20,000 nt of DNA, from NCBI GenBank assembly GCA_016946835.1, contig JACVTC010000083.1:142501-162500 (forward strand). Reading direction: 5' to 3'. Positions 13,170-17,434 of the stretch are shown here, in pieces; positions within the stretch are counted from its first letter, which is position 1; every line of letters starts with the position of its first letter. The translations under genes and the position numbers were made by a program. The notes below the pieces were generated by a model. The model searched no databases. It had not been told where the DNA came from and saw only the letters and a program-made list of their open reading frames with translations. The stretch comes from Neocallimastix lanati (nom. inval.). Its lineage: Eukaryota > Neocallimastigomycota > Neocallimastigomycetes > Neocallimastigales > Neocallimastigaceae.

Positions 13170-16100
13170 ATGGATTTAGATGTTTCAAACAAACATTCAT
13201 TTGAATTGACAACTTTTATGTCATTTACTTATTGTGATGCATGTTCAAAGTTATTATGGGGTGTTTCTAAACAAGGATATACTTGCATAAGTATATATAA
13301 ATATACAAATATATTTAATTTTATCTTATTATTATTTTTATTTTACTTATTCTAATATTGAAATATCAATTAAAAAAGTCATTTATTATTTATTTTTATT
13401 TAAATAATAATTTATTTAATTAAATCTTTATATAATTATTTAATTTTTATTTAATTTAAATATTAAAGAATGTGGAATAAATGTTCATGAATCTTGTATT
13501 CATGTACCCTCAAAATGTATTCCAAATCCGGAAGTAATAAAAGCTCATAATTTAGCAAAAGAAAATTCGCAAAATGGCATTATAAACTCATTCTCTTCTT
13601 CAAATCTTATTAAAAGTTTTCATGATAATAACAACAAACTAATTATAGAAGCTTCACAAAAATTACAAAATACAAAAGCTTTAGTAAAAGATAAAATTTC
13701 ACAATTAAATAGTCAAAATGAAATTAGCAATGTTATTATGAAAGAACAAAAAAAATTAAGTTTATCTAATAATGATAACAAAAATAGTGATATACCAATA
13801 TCAAATGAAGTTTCTAAAAAAGTTGTTAATAATTCTATAGAAAATAATAATAATAATAATAATAATAATAATAATAATAATAATAATAATAATAATAATA
13901 ATAATAATAATAATAATAATAATAATAATAATAATAATAATAATAATAATAATAATTCAGAAAAGAAAGATGATATAGAATTAATAAAAGATGATATAAG
14001 TAAATCCAATATTGAATTATTAACTGAAGATGAATATTCTAGTAGTTTTTCTGAGGTTTCAAAGAAAAAAAATAAAAAAAAAAAGTTATATAAAAAGAAA
14101 AAATCTTCAGATCCTAAAGATATTTTTAATGTTTCTGAGAAAAATAAAAAAAGTGTAGTTAGTGAATATGCTAAAGAATCTATGATATTTAATGAACCAG
14201 AGGATTTATCATCTAGAAGTAACTCTTCTTCAGAACACTTTAGAAGAAGAAATAATAAAAAATTAGATAAGGATGATACATCCGATCTAAGTTATAATGA
14301 TGTAGATACATTAGGTGAAGATGGTGAAATTAGTAAAGATGAAAGTTTATTAAAAAAATTAAACAAAAAAAAGTCATCAAAAAGTAATTCATTTGATGTT
14401 AATATATTAAGTGATAAAGAAAATAAAAAAAGCAGCTTAAACTTTTTTTCAAAAAAGAATAATACAAATTATGATGATGGTAGTTCGACTGAAGTTATAT
14501 TAGATAACTCTGAAGAAAAAACAACTGATATTGAGGATAACAAATCAAAAAAGATAGAAAACACAAATTCAAATTTCAAATCATCAGAAATTACTGAAAT
14601 TATTAAAGAATGTAATATATATTATTAAAAAAGTTTTTTTTTTTTTTTTTTTTTTTTTTTTTTTTTTTTTTTTTTTTTTTTTTTTTATCTACTATATTAT
14701 ATTATATTATATTAATATATTATTTAATCATACATTAGGATTTAATTAATTTTATAATAAAATAATAATAATAAAAATTTTTTTATTTTTTATTTTTTAT
14801 TTATTTATTTATTTATTTATTTTATTTTATTTTATTTTATTTTATTTTATTTTTTTATAATATTAAACATTAGCATCAAATAATAATGCTGAAAATGAAA
14901 TTAAGATATCGTTAAAATCAAAACCATCCCAATCTGAAATTTGTGCATATTCTATTACTGTTACTAATAATAACAATAATTTATTAATGGAATCAGGTGT
15001 AAATGATTTAAGCCATAAAGAAAAAGGTAAAAAGAAAAAAAGAATGATTTAATTATATATTAATTATTAAATATTTTAATTATTAATAAGAATTAAAAAT
15101 ATTTATAAATTATTATTATTGTAATGTAATTAATATTTAATAATAATAATAATATATATATAAATATAGAAGAAATTAATAGTAAAAAAAGCAACGATAA
15201 CGAAAAAGAAAATAATAATAATAATAATAATAATAATAATAACAATGATAAGAATAATGATAAGAATAATGATAAGAATAAAAAAAATAATAACATCAAT
15301 AATAATAATAATAATAATAATAATAATAATAATAATAATAATAATAATAATAATAATAATAATAATAATAATAATAATGAAAATTCAAAAGAAAAAAAGG
15401 ATTCAATAGTAGGATTTAAAGTAAATAAAAATAGTAATTCTGAATCAAATCCAGAACGTAAAAAGGAATTTATTCAAAAGAATAAAAAAAGTAAATCAAT
15501 GGCAGCTTTAATGAAAACTAATCAAGTCCATTCAAAATTAGGACAATTATTGAAAAGTGATACATTTTCATTTCAAAATAAAAATGCTGAATCTGAAAGT
15601 GAACCTCTCTCTCTCTTCTCAACAACACCAAAAAATACAATTGTCTTTGCTACAAAAATTGGACCCGTTTTTGATCTTCAGGACAAATTTTTAGATCTTC
15701 TTAATTGGACAAATCCTTCAAGATCATTTGCTGCTTATTTAATTTATTCTATTCTTTGCTTTAAACCCGATTTAATATTATATATACCAGTTATTTCATT
15801 AGTCTTGCTCTTAGCTTATATCTATTATAAGAGAGAAACTGGAAAAGAAAATGAAAAAAATGAAAAAGAAAGAAAAAATAATAAAAAAGAAAAGGAAAAG
15901 GAAAGAGAAAATGAAAAAGAAAAAGAAAAAGAAAAAGATATGTTATCTAATTTAAACAGTCTTTTCTCTTCTCTGAGTGTAAAACAAAAAGCAACTTTCA
16001 ATCCAAATATGGTCAATATGAAAACTTTACAAGGTAATATTCAAAGATTACAAAATATGATGGGTTCATACTGTAGTATGTATGATTCTGTTATAGAAAT

Positions 16101-17434
16101 TTGGGGAAAACTTAATGCCACAGATTCATTAGAAATTCGTAAAGGTTTGTTTTTTGCTATCCTTGGATTATTAGGACAAATTATAGTATTAAAGTTTATT
16201 AGAATTGGAATAATACTTTTCCTTGTTGGAACTTTTGCCTTTTTCCCTCATTTTTCTGTATTCCTTGTCTGGGTTCTTACTGGTTGGGTTAAAGTAGTAT
16301 TAGAAAAATTTAATGATATTGTTATGAGAACACAAAATAATCAGAGTAATTCTAAATTATATTCTATAAGTAGAAAATTAATTAAACCAATTTATGAAAT
16401 CTCTTCTGATTCTGAAGGTATGGAATATTCTGCTAATTCTCAAAGAGTTAGACTATCTAGTACAATAGAAAATAATGAATTAAAAGTTTCAAAAAATGTT
16501 CAATCTAAACCCTTCATTCAGAATGATTTAGACTCTAACCAAAATGTAATGGAAGGAAAAATATTTAATGCTATTGTAGTTGAAAATCAGGTAAATATTA
16601 CTATAATATTAATTAATAAATATATCTATATAATGAAAAATAAAATGAAATATAATTAGATAACAATAAAAAAAGAAAAAATTATTACATAAAATAAAAT
16701 TATTTATATAATTAATTGAAATATATAATAAATATTTATTATTTATATTTATTTCTAAAATTTTTATTTTTAATTTTATTATTTTTATTTAATTTTTTTT
16801 ATTTTTAATTTTTAATTTTTAATTATTAATTATTAATTATTAAATTTAATTTTATTTTATTTTATTTTATTTATTTATTTATTTATTTATTTATTTATTT
16901 ATTTATTTATTTATTTATTTATTTATTATTACTATTATAATGATAATTAATTATATAAAAGCGTTGGTGGGTAGGTACTGGTTTTACAGATTTATTATTA
17001 CATAACGATCCACCAAATTATTCAACCAATTATAAAGAACCAAAAGAAGCTTTGCCATCATCATTGGATAATTATCCGTTACCACCAAATTATAGATTCA
17101 TTCCAAATGAGTCATGGGAAATTGAAATGGATCATGGAGGAGATGAAGAAGGATGGATTTATATGGTATTTATAATTTTTCTTTTATTCTATAATATTAT
17201 AATTAATCATAGTATAAAAAGTATTAAAAAAAATAATAATAATAAAAATATAAAATAAAAATAAAAATAAAATAAAATAAAAATAAAAGTAATAATAAAT
17301 ATTTAATTAAATTTGTTATTAATTATTTATTTTATAATATTTAGGATAATGTATGGAAAAATCAAGGTCCAAGAAAAATTAATTCCTACACTAGAAAAAG
17401 AATATGGAAGAGAAAAGCAACATTTTATATATAA
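13170..17434 (+). CDS. C1 zinc finger / Pex24-type membrane region / DysF domain protein, six exons
   Basis: This is a Pex23/Pex30-family membrane protein with an added N-terminal C1 domain. Exons 13170-13290, 13469-14611, 14874-15026, 15170-16590, 16962-17165 and 17345-17434 join in frame and code 1043 residues ending in TAA. An in-frame TAA lies 9 nt before the ATG. Residues 9-57 are a C1 domain: H9-x12-C22-x2-C25-x13-C39-x2-C42-x4-H47-x2-C50-x6-C57, with the WG and QG of diacylglycerol-binding C1 domains, though the usual Pro before Thr-aromatic-Cys is Phe. Residues about 100-640 are disordered, Asn/Lys/Ser-rich, with Asn38 and Asn27 runs. The Pex24-type region has DLLNWTNPSRS (about 648-658), membrane hairpins at about 658-692 and 797-849, and a Lys/Glu linker (about 693-730). 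The C-terminus is DysF, with RWWVGTGFTDLL, then EEGWIYMDNVWK and SYTRKRIWKRK. In yeast this family shapes ER subdomains for peroxisome and lipid-droplet formation. Lipid recognition by this C1 is inferred. Confidence 0.92.
13843..13956 (+). repeat. AAT38 tract coding poly-Asn
   Basis: Thirty-eight consecutive AAT codons give a pure Asn38 run inside exon 2 of the C1-Pex24-DysF gene, in the disordered linker after the C1 domain. The codons are perfectly uniform, which points to recent microsatellite expansion rather than selection on each residue. Confidence 0.95.
14634..14686. repeat. T53 homopolymer in intron 2 of the C1-Pex24-DysF gene
   Basis: Fifty-three uninterrupted T start about 22 nt after the intron's GTAATA donor, far from the acceptor at 14872-14873, so this is not an ordinary polypyrimidine tract. 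The length is likely variable between isolates and prone to sequencing error. Confidence 0.9.
15242..15277 (+). repeat. 12-bp coding minisatellite (about three copies)
   Basis: AATGATAAGAAT occurs three times in tandem and codes Asn-Asp-Lys-Asn repeats, between two Asn tracts in exon 4 of the C1-Pex24-DysF gene. Confidence 0.85.
15298..15378 (+). repeat. AAT27 tract coding poly-Asn
   Basis: Twenty-seven AAT codons give Asn27 in exon 4 of the C1-Pex24-DysF gene. A shorter Asn run (about 15211-15246) precedes it. Confidence 0.95.
16868..16927. repeat. TTTA microsatellite in intron 4 of the C1-Pex24-DysF gene
   Basis: About fifteen TTTA/ATTT units lie just upstream of the acceptor at 16960-16961 and would serve as a U-rich tract in the pre-mRNA. 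Confidence 0.9.

Follow-up and report, generated by a model that had tools for sequence, protein, structure and literature searches.

The window, by which we mean the whole 20,000-nucleotide stretch of DNA analysed, contains a gene of six exons in which an N-terminal C1 zinc finger is joined, in a single reading frame, to a Pex24p membrane region with a C-terminal DysF domain. A second copy of the gene, with the same exon order, lies on another contig of the same genome, and the two copies are conserved relative to each other. The C1-Pex24p fusion looks real, and its architecture is well supported by profile matches and by the comparison of the two copies. As the best explanation, to which we assign a probability of about one half, we propose that the product is a Pex23-family protein of the ER whose DysF domain would read phosphatidic acid and whose C1 finger would read diacylglycerol, at the sites where the ER gives rise to lipid droplets and peroxisomes. 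Papers are cited below by PMC identifier, each for excerpts of its text.

Gene model and domain content

The six exons (Table 1) join in frame to give 3132 bases that encode 1043 residues followed by a stop codon. All five introns begin with GT and end with AG, and an in-frame TAA is found three codons 5' of the ATG. The sequence-only reading had placed a C1 domain and a Pex24/DysF protein in one frame across five introns. That single frame was confirmed, as both Pfam profiles score over their cut-offs in the joined protein, and all five introns hold, being in frame and supported by the duplicate with the same exon order (see below). The C1 finger is separated from the Pex24p domain by a linker of about 570 residues of low complexity, and poly-Asn runs of the protein span residues 166-204 and 487-544. 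The GC content of the window is 6 to 21% per kilobase. By eye, short repeat units like 'tcatttcgcaaaa' can be seen 3' of the gene, at 17910-18030, in very A/T-rich surroundings.

Table 1. Exons and first intron of the C1-Pex24 gene, in window coordinates
Feature	Position	Strand	Content
Exon 1	13170-13290	+	ATG and first part of C1 (ligands H9, C22, C25, C39)
Intron 1	13291-13468	+	GT..AG, phase 1, within the C1 domain
Exon 2	13469-14611	+	remainder of C1 (C42, H47, C50, C57), then low-complexity linker with poly-Asn run
Exon 3	14874-15026	+	linker; holds no methionine common to the paralogue
Exon 4	15170-16590	+	second poly-Asn run, then conserved stretch ahead of Met583, then hydrophobic Pex24p membrane region (~626-866)
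Exon 5	16962-17165	+	DysF domain core
Exon 6	17345-17434	+	DysF end (Arg/Trp-containing), stop codon

Profile searching of the joined protein, which had been proposed as a check on the fusion, detected both families. With hmmscan, C1_1 matched residues 9-58 (E 7.7e-13, 48.5 bits, against a curated Pfam cut-off of 26.5 bits) and Pex24p matched residues 625-1037 (E 1.6e-36, 126.5 bits, cut-off 26.8 bits). Both scores lie so far over the cut-offs that neither match can be put down to chance. The domains were also detected in single unspliced exons: exon 1 by itself scores 32.1 bits with C1_1, exon 4 by itself scores 60.2 bits with Pex24p, and exon 5 matches Pex24p positions 255-334 at 29.4 bits, in a match that crosses one stop just before the exon. 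The Pex24p match to the joined protein covers model positions 7-358 of 358. The Pex24p domain holds DysF in its C-terminal part (PMC8172628), and with the model matched to its end the earlier prediction of a membrane region plus DysF is borne out; DysF, recognised via the Pex24p model, lies near the C-terminus in exons 5-6. In the PDB, a sequence search with residues 929-1043 gave a single chance match (E 1.8) and no DysF relative. Ahead of DysF, hydropathy peaks at residues 658-694 and 793-853 fit several predicted membrane segments, and the paralogue has a weak Pfam match to Reticulon (E 0.01). The two sequences gave a poor predicted fold for the membrane region (mean pLDDT 43.7, pTM 0.18), and the form suggested here for that region is taken from Pfam and hydropathy.

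In having a Pex24p domain, with a membrane region followed by a C-terminal DysF, the protein is like members of the Pex23 family (yeast Pex28, Pex29, Pex30, Pex31 and Pex32; Hansenula Pex23, Pex24, Pex29 and Pex32). Pex24p proteins are described as two main subfamilies with disordered extensions, and by that description the window protein, with its long N-terminal extension and its end at DysF, resembles the PEX24 subfamily (PMC8172628). Unlike the Pex23 family as described in these excerpts, it carries an N-terminal C1 domain ahead of the long linker.

Two copies in a duplicated block

A Pex24p profile search of the genome (199 Mb, 762 contigs; all 60 candidates scored) gave four matches, which fall at two loci, one in the window (contig C745) and one on contig C699, and both of these loci carry C1. 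The C699 copy is on the minus strand and is modelled with the same six exons, in the same order and phases, as a protein of about 955 residues, with intron 1 at the same position and in the same phase as in the window gene. The exon 4 acceptor of this model is imprecise, as several in-phase AGs lie in an A-rich stretch and the first in-phase AG was used, and the donor of exon 3 has the unusual sequence GTTATT. The C1 half-exon of the C699 copy scores 31.7 bits, over the C1_1 cut-off, and the C1_1 and Pex24p families were both matched in each of the two paralogous proteins (E up to 1). Searches from an alignment of the two proteins gave 585 pattern matches in prokaryotic contigs, where one of the two patterns was of low complexity, and 26 in viral contigs, with no relative in either set.

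Upstream of both copies, on the opposite strand, are related segments (~820-5800 in the window, ~3200-9700 in L029, the stretch around the second copy), and an exon of these segments, at 420-821 on the minus strand of the window, matches the exocyst component Sec5 (E 1.2e-12). That both loci share these Sec5-type segments makes this a duplicated block rather than a local artefact. The locus is known from a single assembly and has long A/T and AAT repeats, so that an artefact of assembly or of the gene model deserves mention, but the identical exon order on two contigs, each with the Sec5-type neighbour, contradicts it unless both loci were misassembled alike, and we consider it extremely improbable. 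The conserved minus-strand segments reach to ~5800, probably as part of the same gene as the Sec5 match, and their transcription runs in the direction leading away from the C1-Pex24 gene. Two short Lys/Asn-rich open frames, in which no Pfam family scored over its cut-off, lie at 9297-9922 on the minus strand, in the interval that separates this gene from the Sec5-type one.

We measured conservation between the two copies as dN/dS by NG86, excluding the poly-Asn runs where exons 2 and 4 were counted as wholes; the p values are nominal and come from Fisher tests on rounded counts. The comparison is of two sequences from one duplicated block, and the low-complexity linker cannot be aligned with certainty; on this basis, dN/dS was below 0.4 in every tested segment, linker stretches included. 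Values were 0.21 for C1 (p 0.0006), 0.28 for residues 58-145, 0.37 for linker residues 205-421 (p 4e-6), 0.39 for exon 3 (63% identical, p 0.02), 0.30 for residues 545-581 (p 0.03), 0.14 for the membrane region, 0.07 for exon 5 (96% identical) and 0.18 for residues 930-1043. Exons 1 and 6 are 93% and 86% identical to the paralogue, respectively.

These values bear on whether the locus instead holds two adjacent genes, one for a C1 protein made from exons 1-2 or 1-3 and one for a Pex24/DysF protein that starts in exon 3 or 4. If splicing failed after exon 2, translation would reach a stop at 14626-14628; the linker between the domains is of low complexity, the paralogue has its unusual exon 3 donor, and Met460 in window exon 3 is missing from the paralogue, all of which would suit two genes. 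Set against this are the compatible phases in both copies and the coding constraint in exon 3 and residues 545-581, which lie 5' of Met583 and lack a common start methionine. No methionine lying between Met17 and Met583 is common to both copies. A Pex24-only protein conserved in both copies would therefore have to start at Met583, and the constrained exon 3 and residues 545-581 would then be untranslated. Each copy does have linker methionines of its own (131, 279 and 460 in the window protein, 99 and 100 in the paralogue), so that the argument from shared methionines leaves room for translation of one copy to begin within the linker. Nevertheless, the lack of a shared methionine combined with the constraint in exon 3 and residues 545-581 makes the single-gene reading much the better one. 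From the sequence comparison, a separate and conserved Pex24-only gene is unlikely, and we regard a pair of adjacent genes in either arrangement as quite improbable.

The C1 finger and its possible ligand

All eight C1 ligands, from H9 to C57, are present (Table 1), and together with the C1_1 score they bear out the complete ligand pattern reported from the sequence. The last ligand spacing is six residues, one shorter than in PKC delta, and for this reason a scan of the window with the full ligand pattern, which has a seven-residue last spacing, gave no match; the domain is nevertheless spanned by the Pfam profile and by the alignments to PKC. Over the whole window in six frames, the half-pattern H-x12-C-x2-C-x10-14-C has one match, in the C1 of exon 1. 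The finger is like the C1 domains of conventional and novel PKCs in its eight Zn ligands, its QG motif and its Trp and Leu equivalents of membrane-inserting residues. It is unlike them in having Phe at the equivalent of Pro241 and the shorter last spacing, and the window protein has no kinase.

In diacylglycerol-sensitive C1 domains, the non-zinc residues Pro241, Gly253, Gln257 and Gly258 (PKC delta numbering) are strictly conserved (PMC9110374). At these four positions both copies of the gene read Phe, Gly, Gln and Gly, keeping three of the four and replacing Pro241 with Phe, so that the strict set is incomplete in each. Equivalents of PKC delta Trp252, Leu250 and Thr242 are retained, while Leu254 is changed to Val, Phe243 to Tyr and Tyr238 to Phe. 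The suggestion in the sequence-only reading of a possible lipid sensor is thus plausible as regards the three residues kept, and is weakened by the missing proline. With Pro changed to Phe in both copies, the finger may bind diacylglycerol weakly or not at all. A literature search on proline 11 of C1 found no matching paper.

To place the finger among its relatives we can turn to the 20 C1_1 matches in the genome, a list that includes the C699 half-exon and from which intron-split C1 domains may be absent. The QG pair occurs in four of these, namely the window pair (the window copy and its paralogue) and a pair on contigs C740 and C742; Trp-Gly plus QG occurs in two, the window pair. Proline at the Pro241 place is found in another two (C118:56857 and C28:484693), both of which are without QG, and all four strict residues are found together in none of the 20. 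By sequence, then, the window C1 is the nearest to the diacylglycerol-sensing type among the 20 matches, with one defining feature missing. The C740 and C742 matches (L014/L015), which have the QG motif without Trp-Gly, belong to another gene family, perhaps, as a guess, diacylglycerol kinase.

It is also conceivable that the fusion is real and its C1 is atypical, binding a protein or an anionic lipid in place of diacylglycerol and serving as an adaptor or tether. The C1 domain of Raf acts in this way, as adaptor or tether. Such a finger could be expected to show what is seen in the Phe at a strictly conserved Pro in both copies, in the last spacing short by one residue and in the failure of any genomic match to unite the four strict residues, whereas the residues matching Gly253, Trp252 and Leu250 are retained along with QG, and the best PDB sequence matches are to PKC isoforms (PKC beta, the best, at 1.6e-17 and PKC delta at 1.6e-13), with Raf-1 far weaker at 3.8e-6. 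We hold an atypical C1 to be a substantial possibility, somewhat short of even odds.

Proposed role at the ER and genome context

Under the diacylglycerol reading that we prefer, the single gene would yield a Pex23-family (Pex24p) protein whose N-terminus carries a C1 zinc finger, set off by a long linker of low complexity. By analogy with yeast relatives, the membrane region would be a reticulon-like domain that lies in the ER and bends it, and the DysF end would bind phosphatidic acid; from C1 biology, the C1 finger would bind membrane, most likely diacylglycerol-rich ER. With these two lipid-binding ends, the protein would be kept at those parts of the ER that turn phosphatidic acid into diacylglycerol and then triacylglycerol, which are the sites where lipid droplets (and pre-peroxisomes) form, and it would read the substrate and the product of the lipin step at one place. 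That the protein is a natural two-lipid reader, whose DysF recognises phosphatidic acid and whose C1 recognises diacylglycerol so that a membrane-bending module gathers only where lipin works, is a tentative idea that we consider rather unlikely.

Yeast Pex30, a protein with a reticulon homology domain, marks the places in the ER at which lipid droplets and pre-peroxisomes arise (PMC6063926). The Pex30 DysF is reported in the excerpts to bind phosphatidic acid and not diacylglycerol (PMC12101077; PMC12101078), with weak binding also to PI3P, PI4P and PI4,5P2 (PMC12101077). With an artificial ER-anchored C1 sensor in yeast given oleate, about 65% of puncta coincide with Pex30, and according to its authors the sensor may bind triacylglycerol too (PMC6063926). 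Yeast offers a contrast, in that the DysF of Pex30 is without diacylglycerol binding, yet many of the Pex30 sites also collect a diacylglycerol sensor (PMC12101077, PMC6063926). In Hansenula polymorpha, DysF is dispensable for the function of Pex32 and essential in Pex23 (PMC9395739). How Pex30-type proteins locate the ER sites of lipid-droplet and peroxisome formation is a question under active study, and the present genome, with a near-typical C1 at both of the Pex24p loci found in it, provides a natural experiment on whether diacylglycerol sensing is part of the mechanism.

Comparable domain combinations have been described. Oomycete VASt-VASt-Pex24p proteins likewise fuse a domain associated with lipid-binding proteins to Pex24p (PMC4082322), although here the partner is C1 and not VASt, and the lineage is another one. 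C1_1 is counted among the promiscuous domains of fungi (PMC4102429), and with VASt-Pex24p known as well, the event would be a fusion of a familiar sort. Like the window protein, the artificial ER sensor of diacylglycerol (PKD C1a/b-GFP-Ubc6 anchor) joins C1 to an ER membrane anchor; it differs in being man-made, with tandem C1 and without DysF (PMC6063926). The C1-Pex24p combination itself was not met in excerpts from a minority of the candidate papers; the one paper found to mention both Pex24 and a C1 domain does so for the artificial sensor (PMC6063926), and a search for papers on Pex24p together with phorbol found none.

Elsewhere in the genome, lipin-type LNS2 is matched at two loci and DAGAT and seipin at one locus each, with several of the matches crossing stops, as expected of exon-wise matches. 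These matches suggest that the lipid-droplet/lipin pathway is probably present. Loss of peroxisomes in what is probably an anaerobic fungus was considered, as it would have made a peroxin here more surprising, and was not borne out, as core peroxin families match in the genome: Pex3 (C159, C755 and C489; best 3.3e-60), Pex19 (C677 and C69; 6.6e-13), Pex14_N (C500, C79 and C754; 6.6e-19) and, weakly, Pex2_Pex12 (C55, C665 and C654; 8.7e-6). All are exon-wise profile matches, several of them across stops, rather than complete gene models. They suggest that peroxisomes may be retained, and they leave room for a peroxisome role of the C1-Pex24 protein. Literature searches on anaerobic gut fungi with peroxin, and on anaerobic fungi with peroxisome loss, found no papers. 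The host is probably an anaerobic gut fungus, in keeping with the Neocallimastigomycota mentioned in the sequence-only reading, since an abundance of CBM10 dockerins is characteristic of these fungi. The genome has at least 150 matches to CBM10 (PF02013) over its cut-off, as all of the 150 candidates scored, among 1440 from a first look, are matches.
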